Shown: piece after piece, positions 18,051 through 28,301 of the stretch | How the letters are laid out: every line of letters begins with the position of its first letter | How positions within the stretch are numbered: the first letter of the stretch is position 1 | Assembly: GCA_019894715.1 (NCBI GenBank) | Contig: JAGXOA010000035.1 | Coordinates: forward strand, 1 to 38,945 | Origin: Promethearchaeota archaeon | GTDB taxonomy: Archaea > Asgardarchaeota > Lokiarchaeia > Sigyniarchaeales > SOKP01 | Direction of reading: 5' to 3' | Length of the DNA stretch: 38,945 nt | Notes under the pieces: model-generated | The model's input: the letters and a program-made list of their open reading frames with translations, nothing else | Told to the model about the DNA's origin: nothing | The model's database searches: none | Translations under genes and position numbers: made by a program

Positions 18051-20000
18051 ATGATAAAAGAATCTTTAGAAATATATATTCGAGATTTTTTTAAATCAAA
18101 AATTAATATCTCAAAAAATTTTACATTTGACAAGCTTGATGAATTATTTGTAAAAATTCCACGTTTCAAATCTATTATTATAGAAAAATTGAATAATTTG
18201 AAAATATTAGATCCTGCTTGTGGTTCTGGTCGATTTCTATTAGGATTAGTCGAGTTATTATTCAATCTTTATCGTTTAGTAGATTCTTCTTCTGATAATT
18301 TTACTTTAAAAAAGAAGATAATTAAAAATAACATATATGGAATCGATTCTGATGAGGAAGCATGCTTTATTTCAAAATTAAGATTGTTTAGATGGCTATA
18401 TTCCGAATCTGAGGCTTCTGAATGGGATAATAATAATCTTTTTATATTAGAGAAGAAAAATGACCTAAAAAATCTTAGAAAGTTATTTAATTCTATTAAT
18501 TTCAGATTTAACATTAAAAATCAAGACTTTTTATTGGATAACCAACCACCAGGTAAATATGATATTATAATAGGTAATCCTCCTTATATTGAAAATAAAA
18601 AGATAATAAATCTAGAGTATAAAAAAAAATTATACGCAAACTTTCAATCTGCATATAAATTATTTGATCTTTCTATCTTATTTATTGAAAGATCACTGAA
18701 TATTCTAAAAAATTCAGGATTTATATCATTTTTGATTACAAATAAATTCTTATCCTCTGATTATGGAATTAAATTAAGAAAATTACTAATAGTCCAATCA
18801 AAAATTAAATTAATTATCAACATATCTTCACTACCTATTTTTTTAAGAAAATCAATATATCCAATAATAATTTTTATTCAAAATAAAATTCCAAAAGAAA
18901 AACATATGATCAAAATCAAAAATATAGAGAATTTAGAGAATTTAGAAAATTATACAGAATTTAAGATGTTTCTCCAAAGGAAATTTTTAGAATTTCCTGG
19001 AAAAGTTATACCTTTAAAAGGAGATATAGAGTTTATCCATAAAATTTATCTAACATATAAATCAATGGATGAAAAATTTAATAATCTCAAAATCGTCTAC
19101 CGACCATATGGTTTTACTGACTATACAAAATATTTTAATTATATTAATAAAATTAAACAAACTGAGTATGATTTAATTTTGATTGGAACTGGAAACGTTG
19201 GAAAATATCATATTAAATTCAATAAAAAGATTAAAATTGCCAAAGGGAACTATAGTGTTTCTTATATTAATCCCGAAAATAAAAATCAGAATATTTGGTC
19301 CAAGATTTGTACAAACAAAATCATATTTAGAGAAATTGCTAAAGAATTAACATGTGTTTATGATCCAGGAGTATTTACTAATATTACTGGTTTATATTTT
19401 ATTGAAATACCTAATCTTGAAGTAGATAGTCTATTTGCACTTCTATGTATCCTCAATTCTAAATTTATAGATGATATATTTAAAACATTATTTGGTACTT
19501 TACATATGGCTGGAGGTTACTTGAGATTTAATGGGAGCTTTATTAAAAAATTGCCTATGCCTCACTGTTTTCCATTAATTTTGGCTAGATTAGGAAAATT
19601 AACACAATTTCTTCAACAATTAAATTATGATTATTTCAATCATGAAAATTATTTTAATTTTTTCAGTCAGAGTAAAATAAAATTATTACTAGATTTTCTT
19701 AATCCTCTTTCTGAGGCATTAATAAGAGTATTATACATATCTGGTATGGTGGGAAACTCTAATAATCTCTTTCAGGAGTTGAATATTTTACTAAATCTAA
19801 AAAATACCTTTTTTGATATAGAATTGAAATTTTCTTATCCATATTTTAATTTGGACTTATATAATACAACATCTAACCAAGAACAAGAAATTATAATTTT
19901 AAAAATAGAGAAGATCATTTGTAATCTCAAGAAAAACAAAGAATTATTAGAAGAAATTAAAAAAATAAATAATCAAATAAATTTTATTTTTAAAAATTAA
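18051..20000 (+). CDS. Eco57I/TaqI-like type II DNA N6-adenine methyltransferase
   Basis: Predicted to methylate adenine in a specific DNA sequence. The first ATG-started 649 residues show motif I DPACGSGRFLLGL, motif II YGIDSDEEA, and motif IV DIIIGNPPYIE, whose NPPY marks N6-adenine or N4-cytosine enzymes. The C-terminal half, with TGLYFIEIPN and YLRFNGSFIKKLPMP, resembles the TaqI-type target-recognition region. No nuclease domain (PD-(D/E)xK) is visible and no restriction gene is adjacent, so it looks like an orphan methylase or a damaged type IIG system. The start at 18051 removes the YTP block found in frame upstream, so the true protein is probably longer. Confidence 0.83.
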   Translation: MIKESLEIYIRDFFKSKINISKNFTFDKLDELFVKIPRFKSIIIEKLNNLKILDPACGSGRFLLGLVELLFNLYRLVDSSSDNFTLKKKIIKNNIYGIDSDEEACFISKLRLFRWLYSESEASEWDNNNLFILEKKNDLKNLRKLFNSINFRFNIKNQDFLLDNQPPGKYDIIIGNPPYIENKKIINLEYKKKLYANFQSAYKLFDLSILFIERSLNILKNSGFISFLITNKFLSSDYGIKLRKLLIVQSKIKLIINISSLPIFLRKSIYPIIIFIQNKIPKEKHMIKIKNIENLENLENYTEFKMFLQRKFLEFPGKVIPLKGDIEFIHKIYLTYKSMDEKFNNLKIVYRPYGFTDYTKYFNYINKIKQTEYDLILIGTGNVGKYHIKFNKKIKIAKGNYSVSYINPENKNQNIWSKICTNKIIFREIAKELTCVYDPGVFTNITGLYFIEIPNLEVDSLFALLCILNSKFIDDIFKTLFGTLHMAGGYLRFNGSFIKKLPMPHCFPLILARLGKLTQFLQQLNYDYFNHENYFNFFSQSKIKLLLDFLNPLSEALIRVLYISGMVGNSNNLFQELNILLNLKNTFFDIELKFSYPYFNLDLYNTTSNQEQEIIILKIEKIICNLKKNKELLEEIKKINNQINFIFKN

Positions 20001-20119: not shown

Positions 20120-21082
20120 ATGAAAGAAATGAAAAGTAAATATAAACGCAGCATTATTAAATTAGGTAACTCAAAAGCAATAACATTTCCTCAAGAATGG
20201 ACAGAAATTGCTAAATTGAAAGAAAAGTCCGAAATTACACTTTATCCAATCGATAGTAAAACATTAATAATCCATGCTCAAGAAGATAAAGATCAAAAGA
20301 AAGTATATAGACTAGATAGTACAACTATACCAATTAAATTAGTGCGGCAAGCAATCTTATCCGCATTTAAATTAAATATAGATGAAATTTATCTTAAATA
20401 TAACTCGGAAATTCAAGAAAATTTATATAAACTACTAATTGAATTAAGAAGAGAAATTATAGGCTTTGATTTTAAAAATCTACCAGAATCAAATGAATTT
20501 TTTGTAAATTTTCTTCTCGATACATCAAAAACCACTTTTTTTGATGTTTTAGAGGATTTAGTAAAAGTATTTAATACAATAATAAAAAATATTGTAGAAG
20601 GAGAAGCAAGTAAAATTAGCGATCTATTATTAGATGAAATTGATAGAAAATATTCATTGGGGACAAGAATATTAATAACAGGGTTATCTGAATATCCTAT
20701 TTCTAGAACTCAAATACCAATAATTAGATTCCTAGGAAATAGAGTTATTCTCTTATATATTAGAGATTTTATAAATGAAGCATTAATGAACTTACAGCAT
20801 GTTCCTTCTGATATAATAAGCAAATATAAAACTTTATTGTTGAAAATTCCAGAATTATTGAGCGATATTTTAAAGAATTATAATAACATTAATTCAGAAA
20901 CCATATCTATTTTTCAGAATTCCTTAATAGAACTTCAAAAAAAAATTGATAATACAACTTTCGATTCTGACCAAGCAAAATGCCATATAAAGAATTCAAT
21001 TAAATATTATTTAAATAGTTTTAAAAATTTTCTTGATATAGGAATAAGCAGAATGATACAAGATGAGATAGGTCTTTCTTAA
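20120..21082 (+). CDS. AbrB-domain PhoU-like regulator
   Basis: A 320-residue archaeal fusion of an N-terminal AbrB/SpoVT-type swapped-hairpin DNA-binding domain and a long helical PhoU-like domain. The first part, SIIKLGNSKAITFPQEWTE (12-30), is the classic AbrB start. The rest is predicted all-helical with heptad-like leucines, including RDFINEALMNL and IKNIVEGEA, as in proteins annotated as phosphate-uptake regulators. No Pst phosphate transporter is nearby, so a link to phosphate is family knowledge only. The ATG follows a possible operator. Confidence 0.82.
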   Translation: MKEMKSKYKRSIIKLGNSKAITFPQEWTEIAKLKEKSEITLYPIDSKTLIIHAQEDKDQKKVYRLDSTTIPIKLVRQAILSAFKLNIDEIYLKYNSEIQENLYKLLIELRREIIGFDFKNLPESNEFFVNFLLDTSKTTFFDVLEDLVKVFNTIIKNIVEGEASKISDLLLDEIDRKYSLGTRILITGLSEYPISRTQIPIIRFLGNRVILLYIRDFINEALMNLQHVPSDIISKYKTLLLKIPELLSDILKNYNNINSETISIFQNSLIELQKKIDNTTFDSDQAKCHIKNSIKYYLNSFKNFLDIGISRMIQDEIGLS

Positions 21083-23446: not shown

Positions 23447-24373
23447 TTGAATGCTTCAATGGGGGTAAGGAATTTAGATATTTTGATTATCTGTTCTGTC
23501 CTTGTATTTATTACTGTATTTGCACCCTTTGAAATTTTTTTTACCTTTAGAGATATATGGTATGATCGATGGAGAAAAATAAATACTTCAGAACTTGATA
23601 CCACTAAAGTTAAAATTCCTATAAATAATAAAAAAAAACATAATTGCATAGTGGCAAATGTTATTGCTTCAAAAGATCCCTATAAAATAGAATCAAAAAA
23701 AGTTGTGATTATAGTTAGTCACGGTCTGGGTGATAAAAAAGAAACTCTTCAATATATGTATCTTCCTTTAGCAGTTCAAGGATATGTGATTGTTTCTTAT
23801 GATGCAAGAGGTCATGGTGAATCAAAAAGAGTCGGTAAGCGAAGTCACTTCCTTAAAAGAATTGATGATTATAGAGAAATCGTTGATTGGATTAATAAAC
23901 AAGATAAATTTAAAGATATGAAAATATATTCTATTGGATTTAGCATTGGAGGATTGGTTGTATTATCTGGAAGTTTTAAAGAAGAAAAAATAGAAAAAAT
24001 CATAGCAATGTCTGCTATTTCTGATTATAAAAGGACAGTAAGAAGACTAAATCCAATAGTTTTATTGAGCTTTCTATTTAAAGGGATTAAAATCTTTCCA
24101 AAGGAAGAAGAAGTAAATAAATTATCACCTGGAAGAATATTTAATAATTCAAAAAAAGAACTAACAGAAGAGCAATGGAATAATCTTTCTAAGAGAGTAT
24201 ATCTTATACACAGTAAAAACGATCAAGTGATAAAATTTCATAATTTTAGAGAAAATGTATCCATATTAAATCTCCCAAAGCAAAATCAGTTAATCTTTCG
24301 GAAAGGTGGCCATACAAGTAAAAAAAATGAAGTTGCTCTTACAAGTGCAATCTTAAATTTTTTGAAGAATTAA
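23447..24373 (+). CDS. Membrane-anchored alpha/beta hydrolase
   Basis: An N-terminal hydrophobic helix (LDILIICSVLVFITVFAPF, about residues 10-28) is followed by a serine-hydrolase domain: VSHGLGDKKE (90-99), YDARGHGES (118-126), nucleophile Ser166 in IGFSIGGL, an Asp in IHSKNDQV, and His in KGGHTSKK near the end. This is the family of YfhR/Bem46-like hydrolases. The start is uncertain: TTG 23447 or ATG 23459 are the only standard starts, yet the same frame is open and strongly hydrophobic back to about 23393 (RLIVIIIAFLVSWSIW), as if a first helix has lost its ATG. An ATG at 23388 is one base out of frame. The 3' end overlaps the convergent M14-like gene by four bases. Confidence 0.85.
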   Translation: MNASMGVRNLDILIICSVLVFITVFAPFEIFFTFRDIWYDRWRKINTSELDTTKVKIPINNKKKHNCIVANVIASKDPYKIESKKVVIIVSHGLGDKKETLQYMYLPLAVQGYVIVSYDARGHGESKRVGKRSHFLKRIDDYREIVDWINKQDKFKDMKIYSIGFSIGGLVVLSGSFKEEKIEKIIAMSAISDYKRTVRRLNPIVLLSFLFKGIKIFPKEEEVNKLSPGRIFNNSKKELTEEQWNNLSKRVYLIHSKNDQVIKFHNFRENVSILNLPKQNQLIFRKGGHTSKKNEVALTSAILNFLKN

Positions 24374-25548
24374 AATAAAGCAATCATTTCCTTTATAGAT
24401 TCATAAGCTAATTTTATACTTTGGTTTATACTAAAGATTTTTTTATCGAAATATTTTGGATCTGATTTAGATTTTTGGTACTCATTAAAAATATTGAAGA
24501 AATGTTTTTTAGATTCAACTTCGATTGTATATATATTTTTACGTGAAGTCGCATCACTCATTTTAACAAAACATCCATGATCATGAAATTCATGGTTAAA
24601 AGAAGGAAAATAAGTTTCCCAAAGTATGTCTTTTAGATTTTTATAAACTACACTAGATAATCTCTGACAAAAATCCTTACTTTTATTACTATAACAAAAA
24701 TAAAAAGGTAATTTCCCTGAATTAAGAGAGATATACTTTTCAAGTTTTTCATAAACCAATTCTAGTTGTTTATTCGTTAGATTAATATGTGTGTGGTCAA
24801 TTGATTGAATACATTTTGTAAATAATGGTTTTCTATAATAAGGAATTTTATATAATTTCATGACGTTTAGTATGATTCCTTCTTTCAACCAATGGTCAAA
24901 CTTATAAGATATTGATTCTTGAGAGAGATTTTCCAATAGATGATTTGGAAATTTCTCCAGTAATGATGATTCATGAAAATCTAAAATTGATATTGTAATT
25001 TTATCTCTATTCCAATATTTTTGAAGAATTTTCTTTACATATTTAGAATGTTCAGGAAGAGGATATTCTACATTGTCATTTTTACTTAAATGATGTTCAG
25101 GAGCAAATGTCCTTCGCCAAAATCTATTAAGATTGGTTTTATTTTTTAAAAAATAACCGGACTTATTATTTTGTCTTGGATTTAGAAATCCATATGGATT
25201 CATTATTGGAAAGAAGAAAATATCTTGATTTTTATTGATAATACTATCTAAATTAATTTTATCATCAGCAATATGTTTTAAGAAATTTATAATTCCATAT
25301 AATCCACTATACTCATTATGTTGAGCAGAAATAAACACTTTAACGAATTTAATATCCTTAAAATCACAATTACTTTTTATATAGATACAAGGTATTACCC
25401 CTTCTAAAGTTTCATATTGAAAATATGAGATGTTATCAACTTGAGTAAGATTCTTAAAAAGAAGCAATAAATCTTTGTAATATACCCCTCGAACCTTTGG
25501 ATCTAATAATGATTTTAATGTATTTATTTTCATTTTAGTCAGAACCAA
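24370..25548 (-). CDS. M14-like zinc carboxypeptidase/amidohydrolase with an altered metal site
   Basis: A 392-residue protein with the M14/AstE-AspA outline. SAQHNEYSGLYG (74-85) corresponds to the first metal motif HxxE, MNPYGF (116-121) and TNLNRFW (138-144) to the substrate-binding NP and LNR, DFHES (190-194, His192) to the third ligand, and TIEVES (341-346, Glu343) possibly to the catalytic Glu. In the first motif the normal HxxE reads Gln76-x-x-Glu79, with a His shifted by one to 77, so the metal site is unusual or the enzyme impaired. Its start overlaps the end of the ATP-grasp gene by 14 bases, so the two are translationally coupled. It would hydrolyse an amide or peptide bond, perhaps the one the neighbour makes. 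Confidence 0.75.
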   Translation of the reverse strand: MVLTKMKINTLKSLLDPKVRGVYYKDLLLLFKNLTQVDNISYFQYETLEGVIPCIYIKSNCDFKDIKFVKVFISAQHNEYSGLYGIINFLKHIADDKINLDSIINKNQDIFFFPIMNPYGFLNPRQNNKSGYFLKNKTNLNRFWRRTFAPEHHLSKNDNVEYPLPEHSKYVKKILQKYWNRDKITISILDFHESSLLEKFPNHLLENLSQESISYKFDHWLKEGIILNVMKLYKIPYYRKPLFTKCIQSIDHTHINLTNKQLELVYEKLEKYISLNSGKLPFYFCYSNKSKDFCQRLSSVVYKNLKDILWETYFPSFNHEFHDHGCFVKMSDATSRKNIYTIEVESKKHFFNIFNEYQKSKSDPKYFDKKIFSINQSIKLAYESIKEMIALF

Positions 25549-26992
25549 TGATTTTATCCCAATTTGAGAATTCCATTAACTTTTTATAATTATCTACAAT
25601 ACCCTTAAAAATAATACATGAACTGCAAAAGATATCTATAAAATGATCTATTTCTAATCCAAGAAGTTTTAATATTTTTTTAGATAATCCAATTCCCCTA
25701 TCAACCTCAATTCTTCCATCAAATCCAGATAGATTAACAACAAATTCCTCTTTCTTTAATCCATTGATATAATGATCTCTAGCTATTCGAATTAATCCTC
25801 CAATTGGAACTATTTTTCCCCTTATTTGAGATAAATAAATTCTTATATCAAAAGTATGTTTTGCTTTTCTCCAGTCTATTAATGAAAAATTAGCCATCTC
25901 CTGTATAGTATATGGAAATGGATTTCTATTATTCATGAATTTCTTAAAAAACTCTTCTTTACTACTATTAATGATTTCTTTAATCCTTGAGGGATTTTTC
26001 ATGATTTCATCTGGAAAAATAGACATTACTCCTGCTCCACCAGACCCCCCATATGGTTTTATTATAAATGGTATTTTATATCCATTTACTGCTCTTTTTA
26101 TTTTTTCAACAAGTTCATCCTCATCATAAGCTTTGGAAAATAGAAAATTTGTTGTATTATATTGTTCTAATTTCTTCCTTTTATAATAATGAGCTAAATA
26201 TGTCAAAGATTTATCATCAGTAACAATATAGATTGGATTTATAATAATTGTTTTAATTGAATAAAGATTATTTTTTATTAAATTCTCAAAAATTGGATCA
26301 TGTATACGTCTAGCAATTCCGTCTCCGATTAGTATATGAATTTTTATATCGTTTAATTGAACCCAATTATCTCTAAATTTTAAATTTGGTATTAGTTGCT
26401 TATAATCGGCAATTAAAAAGGCAATATTGTACTTAAAATCTTTATCAAAATTAGTTAAATTAAAAATACCAACCGTTAAACCTTTATTAACTATTTTATT
26501 TCTAAAATATTCAATCATGATTACTTTTTCATGTATTAAACCATCATCGATAGGTACTCCAACAACAATTATAATTTTCTTATCCTTTTGGTTAGTATTA
26601 TTTATACATTTTTCAATAGCTTCAAAATATCCCCTATACATAATTTTTTGTTGCTTTTTAGATAAAATTGAAAGACCTCTATTACTTGCTCCATTTGTTT
26701 CTAATAAGAAATTTTTTTTTCCACTACCTTGATCTTTACATACCATAAAGTCTATACTTCCAGCATAAAAAAGATTAGAATTTTCCAAAATATTGTCATT
26801 ATTCCGTTCTAATTTGGTTATTGCTTTTTCTCTAATAATATCTGTAAATTCATCTTCTTGTGATTCTCTTAATTTTGCAAATGATACCAGATCTAATCCT
26901 AAAGAATTTCCAAGATTTATTAAATCTAAATCTGAATCAGATACAGAATTATTCATCAATTTAACAAATTTTGAAAGTTTTTCATCTCTCAT
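25535..26992 (-). CDS. Circularly permuted ATP-grasp ligase
   Basis: A 485-residue ATP-grasp protein whose parts are in an unusual order. The metal-binding strand normally at the C-terminus (vlExN) appears near the N-terminus as FLLETNGASNRG (95-106, Glu98 and Asn100), preceded by GSIDFM (78-83). The ATP-binding glycine loop IIKPYGGSGGAGVMS follows later (310-324, Lys312), then TFDIRIYLSQIRGK and GGLIRIARD (398-406). Such a layout defines the circularly permuted ATP-grasp families, which are thought to join a carboxylate to an amine in peptide-like products. A central domain (about 135-260) is the pre-ATP-grasp part. It is cotranscribed with the M14-like gene. The substrate is unknown. Confidence 0.78.
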   Translation of the reverse strand: MRDEKLSKFVKLMNNSVSDSDLDLINLGNSLGLDLVSFAKLRESQEDEFTDIIREKAITKLERNNDNILENSNLFYAGSIDFMVCKDQGSGKKNFLLETNGASNRGLSILSKKQQKIMYRGYFEAIEKCINNTNQKDKKIIIVVGVPIDDGLIHEKVIMIEYFRNKIVNKGLTVGIFNLTNFDKDFKYNIAFLIADYKQLIPNLKFRDNWVQLNDIKIHILIGDGIARRIHDPIFENLIKNNLYSIKTIIINPIYIVTDDKSLTYLAHYYKRKKLEQYNTTNFLFSKAYDEDELVEKIKRAVNGYKIPFIIKPYGGSGGAGVMSIFPDEIMKNPSRIKEIINSSKEEFFKKFMNNRNPFPYTIQEMANFSLIDWRKAKHTFDIRIYLSQIRGKIVPIGGLIRIARDHYINGLKKEEFVVNLSGFDGRIEVDRGIGLSKKILKLLGLEIDHFIDIFCSSCIIFKGIVDNYKKLMEFSNWDKIIGSD

Positions 26993-27098: not shown

Positions 27099-28301
27099 CT
27101 ATAGATAAAGATAACCTTGATGATTTCCCTTTGTACTTAATCTAAGACTTCCAATTAATATCTTCTTTATCTTGATCTGTTCTTTATAACTTAAGTCTGA
27201 GAATAATAGAATATATTCCTTCTCCAGATTAATTGAGAAAAGTAATCCTATTTTTATTAGTTTAGAACGTGCTGTAAGAAGAGCAATAATTACATAATGA
27301 TAAGGCAATTTCACCAATTCTTCAGGATTAATTTCTGTTTCAGATATTTTATCTTCTTCCTCATCATAGTCATGTTTTACAAATTTAATATCATTCAGAG
27401 GAATTGTCATTTTTCGATATTCTCCTAATATTTTAGAAAATTGACTTTGCCTTAAAAATCTTCTTTCTTCTTTACTTCTTTCATAGAAAAATTCATTAGA
27501 TTCTTTAATTGTAAGTATTTTTCTACTCTTTTTTGATTTTGCCTTTTTCTCAATTTCTTTTAATTCTTCAACCTCCTCATCTTGAAATAGAATGATAAAA
27601 TCAGGATTAATAGCATTTATAAAGAAGTTTTTATAAATAATTCCTGCTTCAGTTTTAATCCAACCATCACTATCAATTAGAATAAAATCTGAGTCTTTAT
27701 GTTTTTTTATGTAGCTATCAATTAGATCTTTACAAAAATGAGATACAATAAACTTAAGATTTCCTTTTGGAAAAGTAGCTCCGATAAATTTAGTATATTC
27801 TGGTTTTATATCTTCTCCTGAAAAGATTGAACCTTTAATTTCACCTATATTAATTGTTGTAGGCAAAAACATCATTTGTTGTCCAAGATCTGAATCTAAA
27901 TAACCCCCTTTTAATCCATTTTTTAAAAGATTATTAGCAAGATATTTTATTATTGCTGTTTTCCCACTACTAATCCCTAAAGTCATAATTCTAACTGGAG
28001 CATCATCGTTTTTATTACTAATATAATCTAAAATTTCATCTTTAATTTCTTCCCATTCTTTTGAAATTGAATTATTTTTTAATTGTTCTAGATTTTCTTC
28101 TGGTTTATTTGCTATAATTTCTAATTTTGAATCATTAATAGCATATAGTGGATATCTTGCAGCACTAGGAATAACAAGATTATTATCTTTTTTGTCATTG
28201 GTTATTTCCTTTCCAAAAATCTCAATAATTCCTTCTAATATTTCAATTCTGGTGGGACCTTTTATTAAAAGAGTATGTCCTTTTTTCAATTCTTTTATCA
28301 T
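27099..28301 (-). CDS. Clp1/Grc3-like polynucleotide 5'-hydroxyl kinase
   Basis: Predicted to phosphorylate 5'-OH ends of RNA or DNA. The 400 residues show an N-terminal beta-rich domain (KKGHTLLIKGPTRIEILEG), then the P-loop GISSGKTA (109-116), the Clp1 signature LDSDLGQQ (135-142) and a catalytic strand FILIDSDGWIKTEAG (186-200), with a charged lid around RSKEERRFLRQSQF. A C-terminal beta domain follows, as in Clp1 and Grc3/NOL9. Archaeal homologues act on RNA and DNA ends. It stands on the minus strand, 74 bases downstream of the GNAT gene. Confidence 0.88.
   Translation of the reverse strand: MIKELKKGHTLLIKGPTRIEILEGIIEIFGKEITNDKKDNNLVIPSAARYPLYAINDSKLEIIANKPEENLEQLKNNSISKEWEEIKDEILDYISNKNDDAPVRIMTLGISSGKTAIIKYLANNLLKNGLKGGYLDSDLGQQMMFLPTTINIGEIKGSIFSGEDIKPEYTKFIGATFPKGNLKFIVSHFCKDLIDSYIKKHKDSDFILIDSDGWIKTEAGIIYKNFFINAINPDFIILFQDEEVEELKEIEKKAKSKKSRKILTIKESNEFFYERSKEERRFLRQSQFSKILGEYRKMTIPLNDIKFVKHDYDEEEDKISETEINPEELVKLPYHYVIIALLTARSKLIKIGLLFSINLEKEYILLFSDLSYKEQIKIKKILIGSLRLSTKGNHQGYLYL

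Follow-up and report, generated by a model that had tools for sequence, protein, structure and literature searches.

In GspSA, a ligase and a hydrolase that act on the same amide are joined, and on proteins an amino acid is added by the tubulin ligases (TTL/TTLL) and removed by the cytosolic carboxypeptidases. The Asgard locus described here places a predicted ligase (LIG) next to a predicted hydrolase (HYD) as separate genes. For LIG, the closest known proteins are the eukaryotic glutathione synthetases (GSS), a putative gamma-glutamylcysteine synthetase of Methylobacillus (PDB 3k1t), GspSA and YgiC/YjfC; for HYD, they are the M14 metallocarboxypeptidases (carboxypeptidase A, REP34 and 3l2n). 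The two genes lie on contig JAGXOA010000035.1 of a Promethearchaeota archaeon, a Lokiarchaeon, in a stretch of 38,945 nucleotides that was analysed as a whole (the window). No description of this locus, or of the second cassette treated below, was found in the open-licence papers searched. The features of the pair are as follows.

25535-26992, minus strand: LIG, predicted permuted ATP-grasp amide ligase of the glutathione-synthetase fold type, 485 aa (reading frame, homologue alignment, predicted model, structure matches)
26693-26701, minus strand: LIG metal strand E98-T99-N100 (ExN), read from the sequence; E98 and N100 invariant in 28 homologues
26030-26053, minus strand: LIG glycine-rich ATP loop YGGSGGAG, residues 314-321, read from the sequence; G316, S317, G318, G319 and G321 invariant in the 28 homologues
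24370-25533, minus strand: HYD, predicted M14-fold hydrolase, 387 aa from its ATG, or 392 aa from an upstream TTG at 25548 (reading frame, homologue alignment, predicted model, structure matches)
25312-25323, minus strand: HYD first metal motif QHNE, residues 71-74, replacing HxxE (sequence, homologue alignment)
25123-25134, minus strand: HYD NLNR, residues 134-137, putative counterpart of the carboxylate-binding Asn-Arg of M14 enzymes (alignments)
24970-24981, minus strand: HYD DFHE, residues 185-188, putative counterpart of the third zinc ligand (alignments)
24514-24522, minus strand: HYD E338-x-E340, putative counterpart of the M14 catalytic Glu (alignments)

LIG resembles the eukaryotic GSS structures (2hgs, 8fbz and 1m0w) in its whole-length match to a permuted ATP-grasp fold, in an ExN strand that comes before the glycine loop and in its similar length, and differs from them in sequence, with about 10-14% identity in the Foldseek list. 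The GSS Pfam family is not among the first 25 families listed as matches of the 28 LIG members; with PF03917 (eukaryotic glutathione synthetase), no Asgard genome scores over the cut-off and the window's own genome gives no match at E<=0.01. The best structural Z, 14.9, is obtained with 3k1t, at 13% identity and with no Pfam link among the matches listed. GspSA and YgiC/YjfC share the permuted ATP-grasp with LIG. However, GspSA is one fused protein whose amidase is not of the M14 type, and PF03738 (GspS-type synthetase) was found in 0 of 119 Asgard genomes, the window's own included. HYD is like the M14 metallocarboxypeptidases in its predicted fold and in the Asn-Arg, third His and Glu positions, and unlike them in carrying QHNE for HxxE, in lacking a clear Arg127 and in that the window protein has no Pfam match.

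A predicted permuted ATP-grasp ligase

By prediction, LIG forms a new branch within the fold of the glutathione-making enzymes. Its AlphaFold model (pLDDT 86.9, pTM 0.89) retrieves eukaryotic glutathione synthetases first in Foldseek (human GSS, E 5.8e-13, 12% identity), and the PDB structures that it matches best are those of eukaryotic glutathione synthetases, a GshA, YjfC and GspSA. The structural aligner VIA matched 333 residues with 3k1t (rmsd 4.6) and 329 residues with human GSS 2hgs (Z 13.5, rmsd 5.0), and gave Z 14.4 for Escherichia coli YjfC and about 12.5 for glutathionylspermidine synthetase/amidase. Alignments to permuted ATP-grasps span the whole length of LIG, whereas most ATP-grasps of ordinary order (ArgX, LysX, Ddl and TTL) align from about residue 138 on and leave out the segment with E98 and N100. 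Because the ExN strand precedes the glycine loop, and because permuted structures match the whole length and most ordinary-order ones only the part from about residue 138, the predicted model supports the assignment of LIG to the circularly permuted ATP-grasps of glutathione-synthetase type. The earlier note on this DNA had read Glu98 and Asn100 as an ExN strand ahead of the glycine loop and hence LIG as permuted; this holds for the residues, which are invariant, and for the predicted structure, in which the permuted and not the ordinary ATP-grasp order is seen.

Apart from E98, N100 and the five glycine-loop residues, K312, E365, D382, R384 and N420 are invariant across the 28 homologues. The window protein does not reach the cut-off of any curated family. 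The commonest weak family matches across the homologues are to the ATP-binding parts of ATP-grasp families, and CP_ATPgrasp_2 (PF14403) is weakly matched by 2 of the 28 (best 1.5e-4). Profiles of LIG and of HYD found no credible relative among PDB sequences. In-frame TAG codons in the ligases of some relatives were considered as recoding and are best explained by alignments that run past the natural stop.

A predicted M14-fold hydrolase with an altered metal motif

The likeness of HYD to M14/AspA hydrolases, also proposed in the earlier note, is borne out by its AlphaFold model (pLDDT 88.1, pTM 0.90), which has the M14 carboxypeptidase fold, with Z up to 20.9 against M14 structures (256 residues at 3.3 A). 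At the level of sequence, the M14 profile is matched by 5 of 21 homologues and AstE_AspA_cat (PF24827) weakly by 7 of the 21 (best 9e-4). The stretches NPxGF, NLNRxW, DxHE and ExE align with M14 proteins; within them, H187, N136-R137 and E338/E340 are aligned with the third zinc His, the Asn-Arg and the catalytic Glu of M14 enzymes, and all are invariant.

The HxxE zinc motif is absent, its place being taken by QHNE in all 21 homologues and in the HYD of genome G072 from another family. Loop lengths and alignments, on which the assignment of the zinc site rests, disagree about the zinc-His position: sequence alignment to the HxxE of Asgard M14 proteins deletes one residue to give HxE, with His72 as the candidate ligand, whereas counting from strand end to helix start in the model, by comparison with the residue numbering of carboxypeptidase A, suggests Gln71 for that place. 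No clear counterpart of the M14 residues Arg127 or Tyr248 is seen in the sequence alignments. Since HxxE is missing and an Arg127 counterpart is not identifiable, catalysis by HYD is not assured, and the protein may be atypical in its metal site or in what it does.

Linkage, selection and loss

Among 227 Asgard genomes there are 31 intact HYD genes, all of which lie directly behind LIG when contig-end breaks are allowed for, and HYD without LIG was not found. Within the window's family, LIG was found in almost every genome with good coverage, in some as fragments, and outside this family in G072 (another family of the same order) and in G078 (related at class level, a Helarchaeote). A genome-wide species scan based on two short peptide patterns found relatives in Lokiarchaeota and one Helarchaeota only, and the viral contigs searched held none of either protein. 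Although no curated family covers them, the two window proteins are conserved throughout one family of Lokiarchaea.

Adjacency within the window's family is weak evidence alone, because the surrounding gene order is broadly conserved there and many flanking genes are kept. The linkage is carried by the LIG-HYD junction, which is unbroken in the loci compared while other neighbours separate in some, and by G072, in which a split HYD lies closely behind LIG at a contig edge, among flanks unlike those of the window's family; this arrangement is split over two contigs, which we infer to be joined. The two-gene order for which the earlier note had proposed a search is found in Asgard relatives, including G072 outside the window's family.

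The same note had HYD starting 14 bases inside LIG. This overlap depends on the TTG start at 25548, whereas an ATG lies 1 base past the LIG stop both in the window and in its nearest relative. As candidate HYD starts in relatives usually fall between -14 and +16 bases relative to the LIG end, tight coupling of the two genes is conserved and stands; the overlap itself is probably wrong. Both genes are under purifying selection, with NG86 dN/dS of 0.12-0.31 across the two. Where HYD is present its own values are 0.15-0.31, and those of LIG in pairs without HYD span the same range (0.15-0.31), which indicates that the ligase still matters in lineages that have no HYD.

Such lineages are common. 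Of 57 loci and the window, 23 have LIG without an intact HYD despite at least 1.3 kb of downstream sequence, and a short decayed stump of HYD is left in 3 of these 23. On the LIG tree, HYD is present in deep lineages, and its label requires 8 changes and the label for its absence 7, all forced by well-supported branches. HYD is ancestral and has been lost repeatedly, in about seven changes. LIG is thus maintained by purifying selection where no intact HYD accompanies it, at 23 loci or more. This makes HYD an accessory that the ligase can do without, and since LIG works without it in many genomes it cannot be essential to LIG's role. A mandatory make-and-break couple is not supported. The suggestion that the ligase is coupled, reversibly, to a peptidase of its own survives in part: HYD is never found without LIG, but LIG is retained in many lineages without HYD. 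The repeated losses amount to natural experiments on what HYD does.

A second cassette in other Asgard families

Starting from a distant match in G178, a cassette of three genes was identified in six genomes, which belong to three other Asgard families (L177:1566-5204 and L241-L245). It consists of a permuted ATP-grasp, a protein resembling N-formylglutamate amidohydrolase (FGase-like, PF05013) and a GCS2 ligase, which are adjacent in 6/6 genomes. Homology between the cassette ligase and LIG takes in the permuted part (hhalign 95.7%, E 8.9e-9), and the two share the motifs DxxxRR and NPxxxxIT..K..TY. In both loci the homologous ligase is accompanied by a hydrolase gene, in the cassette in all six genomes. 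However, the cassette hydrolase is of another family, HYD showing no detectable sequence homology to the FGase-like protein, and the GCS2 ligase is missing from the LIG-HYD locus. GCS2 enzymes produce gamma-glutamyl amides. The company of a GCS2 ligase and an FGase-like protein around LIG's relative favours small-peptide metabolism over the tagging of proteins.

Proposed function and alternatives

LIG most likely acts as an ATP-dependent carboxylate-amine ligase, which would convert a carboxylate to an acyl phosphate and join it to an amine, with a small peptide or amide as the most likely product. HYD, which probably shares a two-gene transcript with LIG, would be an M14-fold amidohydrolase and would most likely cleave this product or a relative of it, freeing a residue with a free carboxylate. 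Its role would be turnover or trimming, and several lineages have dropped it and kept LIG. We give an even chance to this reading as a whole, in which LIG makes an amide and HYD is an optional hydrolase of that amide or a relative of it. A bolder extension, which we hold tentatively and think more likely wrong than right, is that Lokiarchaea have their own small peptide, produced by glutathione-like chemistry. Its synthesis would fall to a new family of permuted ATP-grasps and its turnover to an M14-fold enzyme with a zinc site remodelled from HxxE to QHNE. The presence in Asgard archaea of a ligase folded like eukaryotic GSS gives a concrete starting point for finding out which small peptides are made in these relatives of eukaryotes.

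Reversible tagging of a protein, in which LIG would attach an amino acid to a carboxylate of a protein and HYD would take it off again, is unlikely. The tubulin system likewise combines an ATP-grasp ligase with an M14-fold hydrolase, and LIG has TTL and TTLL6 among its structural matches (Z about 11). However, proteins of glutathione-synthetase type match LIG better and over its whole length, permuted part included, whereas TTL-type proteins match only from residue 137; HYD is dispensable, and no gene for a target protein adjoins the pair.

Alternatively, the two enzymes may catalyse sequential steps, with HYD deacylating a precursor in the style of aspartoacylase or succinylglutamate desuccinylase and LIG then using the freed amine or acid. 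The weak AstE_AspA_cat matches, which outnumber those to M14 by seven homologues to five, are in keeping with this, and the conserved Asn-Arg would fit a leaving group that bears a carboxylate; the persistence of LIG without HYD means that the ligase would have to obtain its substrate from elsewhere as well, and we consider this order of events quite improbable. We judge it just as improbable that HYD, as an M14 relative devoid of catalysis or of metal, serves to regulate LIG or as its scaffold. The replacement of HxxE by an invariant QHNE and the failure to find a counterpart of Arg127 speak for such a role, but the DxH, Asn-Arg and Glu positions are strictly conserved, which is unusual for a dead enzyme, and QHNE does not vary either, as though the site had been remodelled. 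That LIG and HYD work separately and are mere neighbours through inherited gene order, as the many flanking genes kept in the window's family and the free loss of HYD might suggest, is very unlikely given that HYD is never found without LIG, that HYD begins close to the end of LIG (mostly -14 to +16 bases) and that the pair recurs in G072 among other flanks.

Other genes at the locus

The upstream neighbour of LIG in most loci is a gene for a CLP1/NOL9-like polynucleotide kinase (window 27099-28301). Further off, an Eco57I-type DNA methylase frame (18051-20000) keeps its synteny in 33 of the 41 loci compared, and for this reason could be an orphan methylase resident at the locus, not a mobile restriction gene. 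A 320-aa protein with a weakly MazE/AbrB-like N-terminus (20120-21082) occurs in some of the compared loci and is missing from others. A protein of about 404 aa (L246:1541-2755 and L068:10098-11306), with no Pfam or NCBIfam match, is a neighbour of LIG in G078 and is found close to HYD in G072; an HD-domain gene is nearby. It was considered as a partner of LIG on account of its position in G078 and rejected, being widespread in Asgard genomes (96 of 217) and occupying other positions in the window's family. The assembly to which the window belongs also has a short contig (G000:C37:1-3055, L090) with a fragment of a second ligase, which is nearest to that of another genus and is likely to be bin contamination.
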